Of a DNA stretch of 34,019 nt, positions 2,260-17,241 are shown piece by piece. A program made the position numbers and the translations under genes. Each line of letters opens with the position of its first letter. Positions within the stretch are counted from its first letter, which is position 1. The stretch covers positions 1-34,019 of the forward strand of contig JAUVXE010000019.1 in NCBI GenBank assembly GCA_030603745.1, in the 5' to 3' direction. The stretch is from Coriobacteriia bacterium (GTDB taxonomy: Bacteria > Actinomycetota > Coriobacteriia > Anaerosomatales > SLCP01). The notes under the pieces are model-generated. The model was not told where the DNA came from. It was given only the letters and a program-made list of their open reading frames with translations, and made no database searches.

Positions 2260-2728
2260 CGGTCCGGTCGCCGCCCGCGGTCGTCTCTCCGTCGCCGGGC
2301 GCCGTCACCGGGCCGTCGCCGGGCGCGGCCCCGGCGGGAGCCGATATCCCATCCGGCACGACGTCGCCCACGTGCGCACGCGCCACGGCCGCCTCGCCGC
2401 TGAGCACCGCGAGGTAGCGCTGCATCGCGCGCCGTACGCGCACGAGGTAGACGCCGAGCAGCACCATCGACACGCCCACGAGCGCGTCGGCGAACAGGCG
2501 CGCCTCGGCGGGATCGATGCCGAGGTCGACGAGCCCGACCACCCGGCCCACGAGCACCGAGGCCGAGAGCAGCAGGATGCCGCCGGTCACGTAGACCATG
2601 TGCTCGGCGAAGACCGCCCCTGCGGCCACGCGGCGCAAGGCGGTCACCTGCACGAGCAACACCGCCGCGGCGAGGAGGGCGAAGATGCCCATGCCGGTCG
2701 AGAGCCAGGTCGGGATCGCGAACTCCAT
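2252..2728 (-). CDS. Small membrane protein with three predicted TM segments, unknown function
   Basis: This is a 158-residue protein starting MEFAIPTWLSTGMG. The ATG at 2728 was chosen over a longer upstream frame because GGAG sits 7 nt before it and the upstream residues are Arg/Pro/Gly-rich like noncoding GC-rich DNA. Hydrophobic segments lie at about residues 11-30 (FALLAAAVLLVQV), 40-60 (VYVTGGILLLSASVLVG) and 75-98 (ALVGVSMVLLGVYLV). A cytoplasmic-looking basic stretch (RVRRAMQRYL) and a Gly/Ala/Asp/Pro-rich disordered tail follow. It overlaps the 2029-2259 gene by 8 nt. I do not recognise the family. A role in the membrane is all that can be inferred. Confidence 0.65.
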   Translation of the reverse strand: MEFAIPTWLSTGMGIFALLAAAVLLVQVTALRRVAAGAVFAEHMVYVTGGILLLSASVLVGRVVGLVDLGIDPAEARLFADALVGVSMVLLGVYLVRVRRAMQRYLAVLSGEAAVARAHVGDVVPDGISAPAGAAPGDGPVTAPGDGETTAGGDRTDG

Positions 2729-2860
2729 CGGTCGTCTCCATCGATCGGACGCAGGCACGCGCGCCTGCGCGGCGGTTCGGGTCGGGCCGGGGCGTCTCAG
2801 GCCGCGGCCACCCGTGGAACCTTCAGGATATCCACTTCGGCCGGATCGCACCGCCCCGCG

Positions 2861-2874
2861 GTGACGCGCGTCAC
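2861..2874. promoter_or_regulatory. Perfect 14-bp palindrome
   Basis: GTGACGCGCGTCAC is a perfect palindrome between the DUF2207 gene and the minus-strand membrane-protein gene that starts at 2728. It lies about 130 bp upstream of that start and touches the hairpin at 2874-2901. It could be an operator or the basal part of a terminator. GC-rich DNA produces short palindromes by chance, so this is tentative. Confidence 0.3.
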
Positions 2875-2901
2875 ACGTCCGCGCCTCATCCGCCGGACGT
2901 G
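2874..2901 (-). terminator. Hairpin just past the DUF2207 stop codon
   Basis: CACGTCCG at 2874-2881 pairs perfectly with CGGACGTG at 2894-2901 across a 12-nt loop. It begins 23 nt past the DUF2207 stop in the direction of transcription. There is no T-tract, so it would be a non-canonical terminator or a 3'-end stabiliser. Confidence 0.4.
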
Positions 2902-2923
2902 ACCGCCGGGTGTTCCCGCGGCG

Positions 2924-4849
2924 CTACCCGGCCCCGCCGCCTCCTCCGCCTCCTCCGCCGCCCCCGCCGCCGGAGAAGCCGCCTCCGCCGCCCGAGCTCG
3001 ACGACATCTGGCTCGACGCGATCGAGCTCGCCGAGGAGAACCCGCCCGCGAGATCGGAGAAGCTCGCGGGCGAACCGCCCCCGGACGAGTACGCCCAGCC
3101 GTAGGCGGCCACGAACGCCGAGTCGCGGACGACCTCGGGCACCCGCTGGCTCATCTGCTCGATGACCTGCTTGGAGATGCCGAAGACCGTGGCCATGACG
3201 AGGAACTCCTCCCACAGCGTCACGTGCATCGGCGGGGCCTCGTGCAGCCGCGAGAAGTCGCGCAGGTAGTTGCGGAGCGCGCGGTACTTCGCGTGGAGGT
3301 CGTTGGCCTCGGGCGAGCGCCGCGGCATCACGATCGCGAGCACCACGCAGGTCACAGCGACCACCACCGCGAGGCCGATGAGCGCCCACACGCCCGACCA
3401 CGCCGCGAGCGCCACGGTCCCGCCGGCCGCGACCACGCCGAGGACGACCACGATCACCTGACCCGCGGCCCCGGTCTTCTCGAAGTACTGGCGACGTTCC
3501 GCCTCGGCCTTGACCGAGTCGTGCCACGCCTTCATCTGGCGCGAGAACGTCTCGGCGTTCGCCTTGGCGTACGCCTTGAGGTCCTCGAGCGTGAGCGCGT
3601 CCTGCCCGGCGCCCACGGTCTGGAACCAGAAACGCACGAGCTCGCGATCGAGCGGGCCGAGGTCGTTGTAGCGCGAGCGGTCGAGACGCATCTCGAGCGT
3701 GTCCACCTGTTTCGTGCCGATGAACCGGTCGCGCTCGACCTGCGTGCGCCGGACCTCGATGACGCCGCGGTTGATGAGCGACATCACGGTCGCGGCCACC
3801 TCGGCGTCGCCCGTGGTTCCCATCCGCCAGATCGAACCCACGAGCGCGGGGTGCAGGTCCCCCGGCACCTCGCGGTAGTACTTCCCGGTGAACGAGGGCG
3901 CGTGCTCCCGGCCCCACCGCACGAAGAGGAAACCGGAGACGGCGAGCGCGAGCAGGCAGAGCCCGACGCCGCCGGCCCACGCGATCGCGACCGCCAGGCG
4001 TGCCCGCTCGCGCGCCCGGTTCGCCTCCTCGGCGAGGCGGCCCTCCTCAGCGAGGATGGCGGGCAAGCGCTCCCCGCCCTGCGAGAGCGCCTGCGAGAGC
4101 CACTCGGCGGGGAACGCGATGCGGCCCTCGACGAACGTGCCCGGCGGCAGATCGGCGACCGTCATGACCACGTCCCCGCCGACCACGCCCGCCGAGGAGC
4201 CCGGGTCCTCGTTGACGCGCACGCTCCCCGTGAGCGGGCCGTGCGCCCACGCCCGGACGTTCTCGCCGGCCACGATCGGCGCTCCGCCTCCGGGCAGCGC
4301 CACGCCCACCGCCACGTCGCGGGCCCCGACCTCCCACCGGTCACCCACGAACTGCCAGTAGAGCTCGGCGGTGTCGTCCCAGCGCACCGCGGCCCCCTCG
4401 ACCACGTAGCGCAGCGTGATCTCGCGGCTCTCGTCGGTGGCTCGGAAGAACGCGTAGACCTCCGTGGCGTTCGCCCACTCCTTGACCCAGTAGTGGGCGG
4501 GCGGGCGCTCGCCTTCGTCGCGGGCCGTGGGCGAGGTGGTCAGCGCATAGGGACCCTCGGGACCCTCCACGCCGAGGACCTCGAGCCCGTCGGCCCCGCC
4601 GGTGTCGAGCTCCCAGTACACGAACGTGTAGGAGCCGTCGAAGGTGAAGGTGCGCCGCTCGACGACCTCCATCGAGCCGTCCGGACGGACCTCGGCGCTG
4701 ATGCGCACCGGGCCCATCGAGTAGGAGCGGGCCTCGGCCGCCGCCGGGGCGAGAAACCCGGCGAGCAGGAGCACGCCGAGCGCGAGCGCGCCCACCGCGA
4801 ACGTCATCCGGCTCCGGGTCTGCCCGGTCCGCGCGCGCGTCTCGCTCAC
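2924..4849 (-). CDS. DUF2207-type predicted membrane protein
   Basis: This 641-residue protein matches the DUF2207 layout; the family function is unknown. Residues about 15-38 form a signal peptide or first membrane segment ([21 protein letters not shown]). An extracytoplasmic beta-rich domain follows ([20 protein letters not shown], then [20 protein letters not shown]). A second membrane segment lies at about 284-311, a cytoplasmic region at 312-460, and a membrane pair at about 463-484 and 487-508. A cytoplasmic helical region and a Ser/Gly-rich tail that is nearly pure Gly from about 618 complete the protein. The chosen start is the GTG at 4849, which overlaps the tadA stop as GTGA and has a purine-rich site (agggggcgggag) before it. 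An ATG at 4807 would trim 14 residues. It is probably translated by coupling to tadA, although the functions look unrelated. Confidence 0.85.
2927..2990. repeat. GC-rich triplet tract encoding a poly-Gly tail
   Basis: The last codons of the DUF2207 gene form a simple-sequence tract of GGC/GGA/GGG codons (CCTCCGCC-type repeats on the plus strand). It encodes a tail of almost pure glycine. Such tracts are prone to slippage, so tail length may vary between strains. Gly-rich tails are common in DUF2207 proteins. Confidence 0.55.
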
Positions 4850-9377: not shown

Positions 9378-11723
9378 TCACACCGCGTGCCCGCCGAAGC
9401 GGTTCCGCATCGCGCTCAGCAGCCGCCCCGCGTAGCTCGGGTCGCGCTCGGAATCCTTGCGGAACTCGAGCGCACCCCGGATCACCCGCGCCTCGAGTCC
9501 GAGCTCCTCGGCGGTCTGGACGGTCCATGCGCCCTCGCCGGTGTGCCCGACGACCCCGCTCACGCCCGCCAGGTCCTCGCCGAAGAGGTCGAACGCCTCC
9601 CCGAGCCAGCCCACGAGCCGCGACTCGATCACGCTCCCGTGCTGGTAGACGTCGGTCACTTTCGCGAGGTCGAGATCGAACTCGCCCTCGCGCATGATCT
9701 GGAAGCCCTCGGCGATGGCCTGCATCATGCCGTACTCGATGCCGTTGTGGACCATCTTCACGAAGTGCCCTGCGCCGTGCCCCTCGAAGAAGCGGTAGCC
9801 GCCGGGCAGCGCGACGTCGGCGAAGAGGTGCTCGAGTCCGGCGAAGTCCTCCTCCCGCCCGCCGATCATGAGGCACGCGCCGTGACGGGCGCCGGCCGGT
9901 CCCCCGCTCGTCCCGCAGTCCATGAAGCGGATGCCGCGCGCGGCGAGCCGCCCGGCCCGGTCGGCGGCGTCCCGGTAGTACGAGTTGCCGCCGTCGATCA
10001 CGACGTCGCCCGGCTCGAGGACCTCGGCCAGCCCGCCCTCGCCAAAGAGCATCGCCTCGACCGGGCGGCCGGCGGGGACCATGAGCCACACGACCCGCGG
10101 CGGCTCGAGCGCGGCCGCCAGCGACGCGAGGGAGTCCGCCGCGACGAGTCCGTGCGGCTCGAGCTCGGCGAGCTTCTCCGCCGAGCGGTTGTAGCCGACC
10201 ACCTCCCACCCGTGGTCGAGGAGGTTGCGCGCGAGCCCGGCCCCCATCTTGCCGAGGCCCACCACGCCCGCCTGCCCGCGGTGGGCGGGGCGTGCCACCA
10301 CCTCGGCGGCACGCTCCACCACCGCGGGCGAATCGGGCTCGTAGCGCTCGAGCGGCACCGCGTCCGCCGCCCACGCGCGCGTGACCGGATCGATGAACTC
10401 CCACATCGCGGCGACCTCGTCGGTGGAGACGAACAGCGTCTGGTCGCCGTCGATCGCGTCGAGCAGGAGCTTCGCGTACTCCTCGACGTACTGCGCCTTC
10501 TCGGCCTTCTCGTAGAGGAAGAAGTCGAAGGTCCGCCGTTCGACCTCGGCGGTGAAGCCCGGCTTCTTGGCCCAGAACACGATCTCGATGGACTCGGTGG
10601 GCTCGAGGCGGAAGACGACCTCGTTCTGGAAGTGTCCGCCCCGCTCGCACAGGCACGGGTGCGGGTGGCGGAACCGCACCACGATCTCCTTTCGCGCCGG
10701 GCCGAGGCGCTTGCCCGCCTCGATGGTCACCGGCACGCCGCTCCAGCGCCGCCCGGTCATCTCGAACCGCAGCCGGAAGTAGGTCTCCGTGTCCGAGCCG
10801 GGCTCGACCCCCTCGATCTCGGCGTAGCCGTCGTGCTGCGCGCGGAAGCTCGCGTGCGCGACCTCGCTCTCGGTCGGTGGCCGCAACGACCGCAGCAGCT
10901 CGGCACGCGCCTGCCGGATCGCGGCGGGACCGCGCGCGGCCGGCTGCTCCATCGTGATGAGCGCGAGCATCTGCAGCAGGTGGTTCTGGCCCACGTCACG
11001 CAGCGCCCCCACGCCGTCGTAGAAGCGGCCGCGCTTCTCCACCCCGATCGACTCGAGCAGCGAGATGTCGATCGACTCGATGGCGTCTCTGCCCCAACCC
11101 GCCTCGAAGAGGTTGTTGGTGAACCGGAAGTTCATGATGCCCTGCAGCATCTCCTTGGCGAGGTAGTGGTCGATCCGGTAGATCTGCTCCTCCCGGAACA
11201 GCCCGCCGAGGAGCTCGTCGAGCTCGCGCGAGGTGCCCGCGTCGTTGCCGAACGGCTTCTCCACGAGCACCCGGGTCCACCCCTCGAGCTCGCTGCACGG
11301 CTCGGTCAGGCCGCTTCCCGCGAGGCGCTCGAGGATCGTGCGGTAGTGCTCGGGAGGTACCGCAAGGTAGAAGAGCTTGCTCGCGCACGCGCCCCACGCA
11401 TCGTCGATCCCCCGCAGGTGCGAGGCGAGCGCGTCGTAGCCCTCCTCCTCGGCGAAGGTGCCGCGCACGTAGGTGAAGCGGGCACAGAACTCCTCGCACT
11501 CCTCGGCGGGGGTGTCGGGATAGGCGGCGAGCAGCATCTCGCGGACCCGGTCGCGGAGATCGTCGTCGCTCCAGTCGCGCCGCGAGAAGCCCACCACGGC
11601 ATAGCGCTCGGGCAACTCTCCTTTGCCGCGCAGGTAGAAGAGCGCGGGCACGATCTTGCGGGCCATGAGGTCTCCGGTGGCGCCGAAGACGGTGAGCACG
11701 GTCGGCGTGCGCTGATCGGTCAT
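9378..11723 (-). CDS. Fused glucose-6-phosphate dehydrogenase / 6-phosphogluconate dehydrogenase
   Basis: One uninterrupted frame of 781 residues carries the two oxidative enzymes of the pentose phosphate pathway. Residues 1 to about 475 are glucose-6-phosphate dehydrogenase: FGATGDLMARK at 13-23, VEKPFG at 154-159, RIDHYLAKE at 183-191 (the usual Gly of HYLGKE is Ala189) and catalytic His248 in QNHLLQ. A linker of about 25-30 residues follows. Residues 489-781 are a short-form 6-phosphogluconate dehydrogenase of about 292 residues: GLGKMG at 489-494, GYNRSAEK after the second strand, GGNSYYRD, the SGGPAG region and KMVHNGIEYG with the catalytic Lys and Asn. NRS resembles NADP-preferring Gnd of E. 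coli, so NADP use is inferred. The ATG at 11723 is preferred over a GTG at 11732 that is too close to the G-rich site. No lactonase gene is nearby. Confidence 0.93.
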   Translation of the reverse strand: MTDQRTPTVLTVFGATGDLMARKIVPALFYLRGKGELPERYAVVGFSRRDWSDDDLRDRVREMLLAAYPDTPAEECEEFCARFTYVRGTFAEEEGYDALASHLRGIDDAWGACASKLFYLAVPPEHYRTILERLAGSGLTEPCSELEGWTRVLVEKPFGNDAGTSRELDELLGGLFREEQIYRIDHYLAKEMLQGIMNFRFTNNLFEAGWGRDAIESIDISLLESIGVEKRGRFYDGVGALRDVGQNHLLQMLALITMEQPAARGPAAIRQARAELLRSLRPPTESEVAHASFRAQHDGYAEIEGVEPGSDTETYFRLRFEMTGRRWSGVPVTIEAGKRLGPARKEIVVRFRHPHPCLCERGGHFQNEVVFRLEPTESIEIVFWAKKPGFTAEVERRTFDFFLYEKAEKAQYVEEYAKLLLDAIDGDQTLFVSTDEVAAMWEFIDPVTRAWAADAVPLERYEPDSPAVVERAAEVVARPAHRGQAGVVGLGKMGAGLARNLLDHGWEVVGYNRSAEKLAELEPHGLVAADSLASLAAALEPPRVVWLMVPAGRPVEAMLFGEGGLAEVLEPGDVVIDGGNSYYRDAADRAGRLAARGIRFMDCGTSGGPAGARHGACLMIGGREEDFAGLEHLFADVALPGGYRFFEGHGAGHFVKMVHNGIEYGMMQAIAEGFQIMREGEFDLDLAKVTDVYQHGSVIESRLVGWLGEAFDLFGEDLAGVSGVVGHTGEGAWTVQTAEELGLEARVIRGALEFRKDSERDPSYAGRLLSAMRNRFGGHAV

Positions 11724-11777
11724 GGACGGCACCCCCGGGAGTCACGCGCGGGAACGGGCGGAGCGCCACAGGCTCCT

Positions 11778-14240: not shown

Positions 14241-15065
14241 ATGACGCCCACCCCCCACACCTACTCACTCGCGCCCGACGCCGGGCTCGTCGCGGCGTAC
14301 GCGGACTCCCCCGGCCTCGCCGTCGCCGAGATCGCCGGCAGGGACAGCGCCGCCGCGGTGATCGCCACCGCGCGCGACGAGGGCTCCGGCATCCGGGTGA
14401 TCGTCCCGACGGCGGTGGTCACCGGCACCGAGTACGGCGACCCCGGCTCTCCTCGGCGGACAGTGGACTACCTCGTGCGAATGCTCCCCGGTGTCGAATT
14501 CGCCCCGCTCGTGTGGGTCGGCGAGCCCCGCATGTGGGCGGCGCTCAACGGGCGCTTCGCGCGTGAGGTGGCCGGCCGCTTCGCCATCTCGAGCCCGTGC
14601 CTCGCGTGCCACCTCTATATGCACCTGTGCCGCATACCGCTCGCGCGCGCCCTCGGCGGCGTGCCCGTGATCGCGGGGGAACGCGAGACCCACGACGGCC
14701 GCGTGAAACTCAGCCAGACCGCGCGCAGCATCGACATCTGCATCGAGGCGCTCGCCGTCGCGGGCGTCGAGCTGCTCGAGCCGCTGCGCCACGCGAGCGG
14801 CGCCGAGGTCGCGGCGCTCGTGGGCGACGGATGGGACGCGGGACCGGGCACCGGCCTGCTCGAGTGCGTCCACTCGGGCAACTACCTCGCCACCGACGGC
14901 TCGCACGCGTTCGACGAGTCCGCATACCTCGCCTACGCCGAGGGGTTCCTCCGCCCCGCCGCCCTCGCGCTCGCCGGGACGCTCGCCTCGATGGGGCCGG
15001 GCGAAGAGCTGCCGCACCCGGACTACGTGGGCATCGTCCGCGACCTCCTCGGCGAGGGGGCGTGA
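14241..15065 (+). CDS. PP-loop-like protein with a Cys cluster, function unknown
   Basis: I do not recognise this 274-residue protein as a named family. An N-terminal GLAVAEIAGRDSAAAVIATA places GRDS (33-36) where PP-loop ATPases carry SGGxDS. A C-x2-C-x6-C cluster follows (Cys120, Cys123, Cys130 in PCLACHLYMHLCR), then ARALGGVPVIAGERETHDGR. The order strand/PP-loop, Cys pair, Ala-x-x-Leu-Gly helix and a second G-rich loop resembles PP-loop sulfurtransferases such as TtuA or LarE, which bind a metal or an iron-sulfur cluster. Further Cys at 167 and 209 could be ligands. Its stop overlaps the next gene's start (TGATG), so the two are coupled. Sulfur transfer or ATP-dependent activation is inference only; another HUP-fold enzyme is possible. 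Translation is probably leaderless. Confidence 0.8.
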   Translation: MTPTPHTYSLAPDAGLVAAYADSPGLAVAEIAGRDSAAAVIATARDEGSGIRVIVPTAVVTGTEYGDPGSPRRTVDYLVRMLPGVEFAPLVWVGEPRMWAALNGRFAREVAGRFAISSPCLACHLYMHLCRIPLARALGGVPVIAGERETHDGRVKLSQTARSIDICIEALAVAGVELLEPLRHASGAEVAALVGDGWDAGPGTGLLECVHSGNYLATDGSHAFDESAYLAYAEGFLRPAALALAGTLASMGPGEELPHPDYVGIVRDLLGEGA

Positions 15066-16381
15066 TGGGCGGGGCGGCCGCACACCCGCCGGTGGTGCTG
15101 ATCGTCCTCGACGGGATGGGCGACCGTCCGTGGCCCGAGCTCGACGGCTGCACCCCGCTCGAGGCGGCGCACACGCCCACCCTCGACGCGCTCGCCGCCT
15201 CGGGCGCCACCGGCGTGCTGCACCCGCTCGGCCCCGGCCGCGCGCCCGGGACCGAGCTCTCGCACTTCGTCCTCTTCGGTTACCCCGCCGAGGAGTACCC
15301 GGGCCGCGTGGTGTTCGAGGCCGCCGGCTGCGGGCACGTGCTCTCGCCGGACGACGTGGCCCTCCGCGCGCTCTTCAGCCGCGTGCGGCGTGAGGCCGAC
15401 GGCTCGCTCACGCTCACCGAGCACTTCGCCGACATCGACGACGCCGCCTGCCGCGACCTCGCCGCGCTCATGCCGCCGGTCGAGCACGCCGGGCTCACCG
15501 TGCGCCTCGAGTGCACCGGCGACCGCCAGGGCGTGGTCACGGTCAGCGGCGGCGCGAGCACCGAGATCACGGACTGCGACCCGTTCTTCACCGGCCGGCC
15601 GATCGCCGCCATCCGCCCGCTCGCCGCCGCCCAGGACCCCGATGCCGCCACCCGCACGGCGGCCGCGCTCACGGTCTTCCTCGGCCAGGCATACCGGGCG
15701 TTTCGCGCGGCGGAACCGGCCGGCGGTGGCGAGTCGATCTTCCCGCTGCTCAAGTGGACCGGGCGGCGGCGCGACCTTCCCACGTTCACGCAGCGGACCG
15801 GCATGCGCGGCGCCACGGTCGCCTGGGGCACGCTCTTCCGGGGCATCGCGGCCGAGATCGGCCTGGAGTACCGGCCGGTCGCGACGATGTCCGATCCCCG
15901 CTCGGACATCGAGGCCAAACTCGCCGAGGCGACCCGCGCGTTCGCTGCCGGCACGGAGTTCGTCCACGTGCACACCAAGGCGCCCGACGAGGCCGGCCAC
16001 GCCAAGGACCCCTCGCGCAAGCGGGACGTCTTCGCGGCGCTCGACCGCGGGCTCGCCGGCCTGCTCGAACCGGGCGCGCTGCCTGAGGGCGCGATCCTCT
16101 GCATCACGGGAGACCACGGCACGCCGGCCGGGACCGGACTGATCCACTCGGGCGACCCGGTGCCGCTGCTGATCGCGGCGCCCGGGGTCCGCGCCGACCA
16201 CGTCACCACGTTCTCCGAGCTCGCCTGCGCGGCGGGGTCCCTCGGCCACCTGCGGGGGGAAGACCTGATGCCGCTGCTGCTCAACGCGCGGGGCACGACG
16301 CGCTACCTCGGCGCGCGCCTCGGCACGCACACCGGCCTGCACTGGCCGGAGGACTACGCGAGCTTCAGGGTGGGCGACTGA
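15065..16381 (+). CDS. Archaeal-type cofactor-independent phosphoglycerate mutase homologue (ApgM-like)
   Basis: This 438-residue protein of the alkaline phosphatase superfamily has the ApgM layout. The N-terminal metal site VVLIVLDGMGD carries Asp16. An inserted domain spans about residues 80-200. The C-terminal metal sites are HVHTKAPDEAGHAKD and ITGDHGTP. The family interconverts 3- and 2-phosphoglycerate through a phospho-enzyme on Ser in a GSD motif. Here the equivalent stretch reads PGTELSHFVLFGY, so the nucleophile would be Thr63. Thr is used by other superfamily members such as phosphopentomutase and phosphonoacetate hydrolase, and related ApgM-like proteins have been assigned other activities such as homoserine kinase. 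The substrate is therefore uncertain. GAGGGGG precedes the ATG, which overlaps the upstream stop. The 3' end overlaps the convergent PHP gene by 28 nt. Confidence 0.85.
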   Translation: MGGAAAHPPVVLIVLDGMGDRPWPELDGCTPLEAAHTPTLDALAASGATGVLHPLGPGRAPGTELSHFVLFGYPAEEYPGRVVFEAAGCGHVLSPDDVALRALFSRVRREADGSLTLTEHFADIDDAACRDLAALMPPVEHAGLTVRLECTGDRQGVVTVSGGASTEITDCDPFFTGRPIAAIRPLAAAQDPDAATRTAAALTVFLGQAYRAFRAAEPAGGGESIFPLLKWTGRRRDLPTFTQRTGMRGATVAWGTLFRGIAAEIGLEYRPVATMSDPRSDIEAKLAEATRAFAAGTEFVHVHTKAPDEAGHAKDPSRKRDVFAALDRGLAGLLEPGALPEGAILCITGDHGTPAGTGLIHSGDPVPLLIAAPGVRADHVTTFSELACAAGSLGHLRGEDLMPLLLNARGTTRYLGARLGTHTGLHWPEDYASFRVGD

Positions 16382-17094
16382 CCGCGGCACTCGCGGACCG
16401 CGCCGGAGGCGAGCGCCCGGCGCAACGCCTCGAAGGTGAGCTCCCCCATCTCGACCACCGCGTGCCGGGCGCCGATGGCGGCGCATGAGTGCGAGTCGGA
16501 GCAGCTGATGACCGCCGGGCGGCAGCCGTCGAGCCGGGAGCGTGACGCCCGCGGGTCGACGAGGTCGACCGCGGCCACGGCCGGCTCGGTCACGAGCCGC
16601 TCGAAGAGCGGGCGGTCGATGAGGCGGTAGTCGCCGAACGCCCGGTCGGCATGCGCGACCACCGCGAGGCCGCCGAGCGCGTCGATGATCCGGCACACCT
16701 CGGCGGGATCGTGCTCGATGGTGTAGAAGGGGCGCGCCTCCTCGCCGGGAAGGTCCGAGGCCACGCCGAGGATCCCGAGGAGCGCGCCGAAGCGCTGCGC
16801 GTAGGTCGACTGGTCGAAGAGGGCGACGATGTGCGCCTCGTCGTCTCGGTGGGTGATCCGAAGCTCCGCGCCGGGGACGACCAGCAGTTCGCGGCCGGTC
16901 TCGCGCGCCACCTCGCCGGCGGCCGCGATGAGTTCGCCTGCGTACTCCATGCTCAGGTGGTCGGTGGCCGCGTAGACGTCGAGGCCCGCGGCGAGCGCGC
17001 ACTCGACGATCTCACGCGCGGTCGTCTCGCTCCGCCGATGGTGGTCCGCGGAAGCCGGCGTATGGTTATGCAGATCGGCCACGAATGCGGGCAT
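16354..17094 (-). CDS. PHP-domain phosphoesterase-like protein
   Basis: This 246-residue PHP-domain protein is a likely metal-dependent phosphoesterase. The metal ligands appear in order: DLHNH (His9, His11), ATDH (Asp45, His46), GAELRITH, VVAHADR and SCSDSH. Stand-alone PHP proteins include histidinol phosphatase and nucleotide or oligoribonucleotide phosphatases; the substrate here is unknown. The ATG at 17094 (MPAFVADLHNHT) was chosen because the family begins with a strand leading straight into the HxH motif; the Shine-Dalgarno site is weak (GGGACGG). An extended -10 (TGaTACACT) lies about 40 nt upstream. The last 28 nt overlap the ApgM-like gene tail to tail. Confidence 0.88.
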   Translation of the reverse strand: MPAFVADLHNHTPASADHHRRSETTAREIVECALAAGLDVYAATDHLSMEYAGELIAAAGEVARETGRELLVVPGAELRITHRDDEAHIVALFDQSTYAQRFGALLGILGVASDLPGEEARPFYTIEHDPAEVCRIIDALGGLAVVAHADRAFGDYRLIDRPLFERLVTEPAVAAVDLVDPRASRSRLDGCRPAVISCSDSHSCAAIGARHAVVEMGELTFEALRRALASGAVRECRGQSPTLKLA

Positions 17095-17131
17095 GACGAC
17101 CGTCCCGGAACAGGGGATTCTTCGTTGATGT

Positions 17132-17140
17132 AGTGTATCA
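17132..17140 (-). promoter_or_regulatory. Extended -10 promoter for the PHP gene
   Basis: On the minus strand TGaTACACT is an extended -10 match, 38 nt before the ATG at 17094. It has the same form as the tRNA promoters in this window. Confidence 0.5.
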
Positions 17141-17241
17141 CACCGGCTTATGCTACGCATCCCCGGGCGCGCCTCGGCCAGGCCCCCTCAGGCCCCGCGC
17201 CTCTCCACACGGAATCCGCACTCGGGTGCGGGCGGTTGGGC

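Follow-up and report, generated by a model that had tools for sequence, protein, structure and literature searches.

A conserved gene pair of a PP-loop ATPase-like protein and a divergent ApgM-like paralogue, with recurrent selenium-gene neighbours, in mostly anaerobic bacteria

Introduction

Two overlapping genes on a contig of a Coriobacteriia bacterium raise the question of whether their products act together and, if so, in which chemistry. The window, by which we mean the whole analysed stretch of 34,019 nucleotides, encodes genes A and B on the plus strand (Table 1), and the two share a single base at position 15065, the stop codon of A occupying 15063-15065 and the start codon of B 15065-15067. 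An original prediction, made from the sequence alone, had noted this TGATG overlap as well as a GRDS motif at the PP-loop position of A. Both were borne out, the motif lying within IAGRDSAAA at residues 31-39.

Elsewhere in the window, a 784-aa open reading frame (9378-11732, minus strand) carries the N- and C-terminal domains of G6PD followed by 6-phosphogluconate dehydrogenase domains and is, judged by this domain order, an apparent G6PD-6PGD fusion. A search for a plasmid origin gave no match.

Table 1. Positions of the gene pair, its putative functional residues and the neighbouring partner gene in the window.
Feature	Position	Strand	Basis
Gene A, 274-aa PP-loop/HUP ATPase-like protein, predicted YcfA-like fold, no sequence family	14241..15065	+	ORF, AF2, structure match
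Gene B, 438-aa divergent ApgM-like phosphotransferase/mutase, alkaline phosphatase superfamily	15065..16381	+	Pfam, TIGR00306, tree
TGATG stop/start overlap of A and B	15063..15067	+	Sequence
PP-loop variant IAGRDSAAA, A residues 31-39	14331..14357	+	Conservation among homologues
CxxC of A (C120, C123) with the invariant H124/Y126/H128 after it; first and second candidate ligands of a [4Fe-4S] cluster	14598..14609	+	
C209 of A, candidate third [4Fe-4S] ligand	14865..14867	+	89/89 homologues
Thr63 of B, at the position of the ApgM Ser nucleophile	15251..15253	+	Alignment to 2ZKT and linked B proteins
Recurrent partner gene for a PHP-domain metallophosphoesterase, transcribed towards B	16357..17160	-	PF02811

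Results and Discussion

Conservation and spread of the gene pair

Gene A was present in 33 of 61 relatives, as a single copy per genome, and 80 loci were kept when 84,980 species genomes were scanned; after removal of duplicates, 89 non-redundant A loci were available. By their record titles, the scanned loci belong to Coriobacteriia, other Actinomycetota, Desulfobacterota, Nitrospirota, Synergistota, Chloroflexota, Gemmatimonadota, Zixibacteriota, Coatesbacteria and Acetothermia, and the A-B pair spans about ten bacterial phyla, with anaerobes in the majority. B was located on the same strand as A and within 3.2 kb of it in 78 of the 89 non-redundant loci. Together with the homologues in the 33 relatives and the 80 scanned loci, this argues that the pairing is not due to chance. 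Gene order was A-B in 55 and B-A in 18 of 73 scored loci, which indicates that the link between the genes outlived rearrangement. Tree distances of the two proteins were likewise correlated (Mantel r 0.72 overall and 0.94 outside Coriobacteriia), the largest r among 500 permutations of the full set being 0.09. Across the 61 relatives, A and a B-class gene occurred together in 31 genomes and were both missing from 26, with two genomes encoding only A (B being absent from 2 of the 33 A-positive relatives) and two only the B-class gene (Fisher p 1e-12). The neighbourhood is thus retained both in related genomes and across phyla. No description of the pairing was found in the open-access literature, to which our search was confined, and this supports the original prediction of an undescribed pairing.

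Some loci depart from the common arrangement. One relative (G035, locus L150, G035:C34:9000-17000; features at 1340-1651 and 2294-3622) encodes a B-class gene with no more than a weak A-like fragment nearby, the latter possibly a decayed copy of A. In MAGs of Coatesbacteria and Zixibacteriota (L122 2873-4368; L127 5863-7388), A is followed not by B but by an overlapping gene for a CDP-alcohol phosphatidyltransferase resembling PIP synthase, and these loci possibly represent a variant of the A/B system.

Gene A: predicted fold and conserved cysteines

Searches with gene A against Pfam, NCBIfam and PDB sequences returned nothing better than noise, and a 26-member alignment of A matched nothing in Pfam or PDB sequences. 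Sequence homology to characterised PP-loop enzymes was not found in NCBIfam and PDB searches either, and specifically none to YcfA up to E=10 (phmmer and profile search of PDB chain sequences). Since a single-sequence AF2 model reached a pLDDT of only 40, it was replaced by an alignment-based model with a pLDDT of 90.7. The best structural match of this model was YcfA (Foldseek, VIA-align; Z 20.3, 2.7 A over 213 residues), followed by ThiI (Z 13.8), QueC (11.5), MnmA (about 10-11), LarE (10.0) and NcsA (9.4), and all top matches were PP-loop enzymes. The predicted structure thus places A in the PP-loop ATP pyrophosphatase superfamily, with the HUP fold on which the original prediction had made its case depend. 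As far as the open literature goes, the proposal that A is a sulfur-transfer or ATP-activating enzyme is supported as well. Across homologues the PP-loop takes the variant form IAGRDSxAA, with G33, D35 and S36 in 85 of 85 sequences that have a residue there, A38 in 89/89 and A39 in 87/89.

Conservation also singled out three cysteines in the pattern CxxC-x85-C, namely C120 (88 of 89 homologues), C123 (89/89) and C209 (89/89). The C-x2-C-x6-C cluster that had been proposed earlier is present in the window protein, but its last member, C130, is replaced by L, I, V or A in homologues and was therefore ruled out as third cluster cysteine, that place falling to C209. In NcsA, C142, C145 and C233 are the ligands of a [4Fe-4S] cluster (PMC10067955), LarE has the ligand pattern CXXC-C (PMC9283937), and in both enzymes the free iron of the cluster carries the sulfide (PMC10067955, PMC9283937). 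The distance from C123 to C209 in A is 86 residues, that from C145 to C233 in NcsA 88. The CxxC and third cysteine of A correspond to the ligand pattern of NcsA/TtuA and LarE, and by analogy C120, C123 and C209 are candidate ligands of a [4Fe-4S] cluster. In one locus (L131) the reading frame of A is split; a selenocysteine codon was considered there, and the break looks like a frameshift.

YcfA takes part in 6-thioguanine biosynthesis in Erwinia amylovora, as does TgsB in staphylococci, and the ycf/tgs genes have NUDIX, HAD and efflux proteins as partners (PMC7994395). According to the model, A would share with YcfA and TgsB the whole-domain fold, the PP-loop position and the build of a nucleotide-scale enzyme without RNA-binding domains. 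However, sequence similarity to YcfA is undetectable, structural identity is 10-18%, and the recurrent partners of A are not NUDIX, HAD and efflux proteins but the ApgM-like B, PHP and TIM-barrel proteins, SelD and YedF. With NcsA/TtuA/TtcA and LarE, A has in common the PP-loop fold, the CxxC and a third cysteine 77-88 residues further on, whereas structural similarity to NcsA and LarE is lower (Z 9-10) and A has no zinc-finger termini. A would appear to work like the PP-loop sulfur insertases, and yet by sequence it belongs to none of the YcfA, NcsA and LarE families.

A function in tRNA thiolation, with A as a TtcA/ThiI-like enzyme and B as a metabolically unrelated operon neighbour, might be suggested by the presence of ThiI, MnmA and NcsA among the next structural neighbours and by the cysteine triad, which matches that of NcsA. 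We consider this improbable, since YcfA is much closer to A (Z 20 versus 14) and the YcfA-like domain accounts for all 274 residues, which leaves no room for zinc-finger termini or a THUMP domain. The two-way linkage of A and B, their correlated trees and the PHP and TIM-barrel partners would also sit badly with a lone tRNA enzyme.

Gene B: a divergent ApgM-like paralogue

The assignment of the second product to the alkaline phosphatase superfamily proved correct, B having matches to PF01676 (9e-36) and PF10143 (3e-25) and resembling ApgM. It shares the fold family, the two-metal core and the nucleophile position with ApgM (TIGR00306) and with the phosphonoformyl transferase PhpG (NF038358), but scores below both curated cut-offs (268.7 bits against 320 and 176.6 bits against 545, respectively) and differs from both in forming its own clade, in altered substrate-site residues and in its consistent PP-loop partner. 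Some linked B proteins of other phyla do exceed the TIGR00306 cut-off, e.g. that of L105 with 341 bits. The core residues D16, H67, D308, H312, D350, H351 and H361 are retained, with metal ligands and nucleophile position conserved, as are the DGxGDR and AH motifs of archaeal ApgM (2ZKT). An alignment of about 73 linked B proteins to 2ZKT showed Ser at the nucleophile position in 60 and Thr in 12, including the window protein. The altered nucleophile that had been emphasised earlier is therefore real in the window (Thr63) but amounts to a conservative Ser-to-Thr exchange in a minority of B proteins, the rest of which keep Ser. Differences of another kind were found at two arginines of the 2ZKT fragment: Arg142, present in 15/15 comparison ApgMs, has given way to Q, D or E in the majority of B proteins, and Arg219 to K or Q. 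Their conservation suggests that both are substrate residues that have been altered in B. The comparison ApgMs from Coriobacteriia themselves deviate from archaeal ApgM at several sites, and the contrast between B and ApgM is therefore limited to residues shared with 2ZKT.

One clade (support 0.87) holds all 73 A-linked B proteins that were tested and, in addition, two unlinked ones, from G035 and from G005, whose contig stops where A would be expected. Besides B, the window genome encodes another ApgM gene (C15, 405.8 bits) and, as a third gene of the PGM type, a partial match resembling iPGM (C14), and B is therefore unlikely to be the glycolytic enzyme. That B might nevertheless be a housekeeping phosphoglycerate mutase which lies beside A by accident would agree with its complete set of metal and nucleophile residues and its 2ZKT-like motifs. 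We regard this as very unlikely in view of the two other PGM-type genes, the score below the ApgM cut-off, the separate clade, the replaced arginines and the fact that the presence of B follows that of A and not glycolysis. From its sequence, B appears to be a divergent, non-housekeeping ApgM-like paralogue with altered substrate residues.

Recurrent third partners

The gene convergent with B in the window encodes a PHP-domain protein whose homologues (PHPa) occupy the same position in most loci of Coriobacteriia and Aquicultor. Where the order is B-A, as in loci of Nitrospirota, Synergistota and others, a related PHP protein (PHPb; HHalign probability 98% against PHPa) adjoins B. With 14 members, PHP also outnumbered every other Pfam family among the 130 remaining neighbours. 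A TIM-barrel protein with weak similarity to CbiR (protein C) was found in the cluster at 26 loci, mostly between A and B in Desulfobacterota. These two partners, like the selenium genes described below, did not form part of the original prediction. An anti-phage system was considered and rejected, PADLOC having matched only the PHP domain, weakly, to Ppl. A TIGR04283 glycosyltransferase annotated as 'arsenosugar biosynthesis' was observed near B in L105 (1298-2035, minus strand) and L110 (2631-3395, minus strand).

Selenium genes in the neighbourhood

In 13 loci, which belong to Actinomycetota, Nitrospirota and Desulfobacterota and show several gene orders, SelD was encoded no more than 7 kb from A, where 0.35 would be expected, and reduction to six independent events would still give a p of about 2e-6. 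YedF (TIGR03527) was found near A in six loci, and other neighbours of A/B were a cysteine desulfurase (TIGR01977), a 'diclust_near_Sec' protein and transport domains of the YedE type; this whole set, SelD and YedF included, recurs in the same three phyla in several distinct gene orders. In one of the loci (L113 3338-4809), a futalosine hydrolase and a VitK2_biosynth gene of the menaquinone-futalosine pathway lie between A and SelD.

At the level of whole genomes, SelD scored above cut-off in 42 of 47 A-positive genomes outside Coriobacteriia, with an in-frame TGA in nearly all, the published share of sequenced bacteria with SelD being 33.7% (PMC5029168). In a further set it was present in 33 of 33 A-positive genomes, with exceptions elsewhere; five of the 47 lack a full SelD, among them G082, which encodes A and a B-class gene on a single 2.4-Mb chromosome. 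Within Coriobacteriia, SelD was found in 34/34 A-positive and 169/264 A-negative genomes (p 8e-7, ignoring phylogeny, by which this class-level test is confounded), and an anaerobic lifestyle may confound the co-occurrence of A and SelD in general. In the window, as in most Coriobacteriia, SelD is not a neighbour of A.

A and B might accordingly make a thiolated nucleotide or cofactor in which selenium plays no role, the SelD signal reflecting the tendency of strict anaerobes with formate or Wood-Ljungdahl metabolism to use selenocysteine. This alternative is a tentative one but the most serious that we considered. It is in line with the link of the fold relative YcfA to 6-thioguanine synthesis (PMC7994395), with G082, which lacks SelD in spite of having both A and a B-class gene, and with the missing SelD linkage in most Coriobacteriia, whereas the excess of SelD-linked loci and the recurrence of the whole set of selenium-related neighbours beside A/B in three phyla speak against it.

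Proposed function

Taken together, the A-B system is real, conserved and apparently undescribed, and the class of its chemistry appears fairly clear. Conservation of the pair across about ten phyla, often beside selenium genes, points to an undescribed sulfur or selenium pathway. Our preferred reading, to which we assign a probability of about 0.5, is that A is a [4Fe-4S] PP-loop chalcogen insertase and B a phosphotransferase, which together produce a thio- or seleno-metabolite tied to the selenium metabolism of anaerobes through SelD. A would probably adenylate a carbonyl or hydroxyl group of a small, probably nucleotide-like substrate, for which YcfA and the phosphate-handling partners are the only pointers, and would then insert sulfur (or selenium) carried by the free iron of a [4Fe-4S] cluster whose ligands are C120, C123 and C209, as in NcsA/TtuA and LarE. 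B, as a two-metal enzyme with a Thr or Ser phospho-intermediate, would probably move or remove a phosphate or phosphoryl-linked group on the substrate or product of A, while the PHP protein or, in other lineages, the CbiR-like TIM barrel would be the probable agents of further phosphoesterase steps. Such phosphate adjustment could take place before or after the step of A. The product would be a thio- or seleno-nucleotide or phospho-metabolite. Compared with the original prediction, the linkage, the predicted HUP fold and the apparent novelty of the pairing stood, while the identity of the cysteines and the emphasis on the nucleophile had to be revised.

A more specific possibility, which we consider doubtful and somewhat less probable than the selenium-free alternative, is that A/B, the PHP protein and the CbiR-like TIM barrel together constitute an additional SelD-dependent selenium-use trait making an undescribed seleno-cofactor or carrier. 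The PP-loop [4Fe-4S] enzyme would then take selenium from selenophosphate or selenide and add it to a nucleotide-like metabolite that is phosphorylated. Earlier work has read orphan selD genes as pointing to an unknown trait (PMC5029168). The SelD/YedF neighbourhood is a feature that A/B share with the established SelD-dependent traits (selenocysteine, selenouridine, Se-cofactor and selenoneine SenABC), but the selenium genomics papers that we consulted, that study included, do not list A, B or C as candidates.

A linked pair that extends across about ten phyla and consists of a protein without a family model and a non-housekeeping paralogue points strongly to an unknown pathway, and named genes, residues and partner proteins are now identified for its study. 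Published bacterial uses of selenium are few, and the A/B neighbourhood gives a concrete and testable link to this element.
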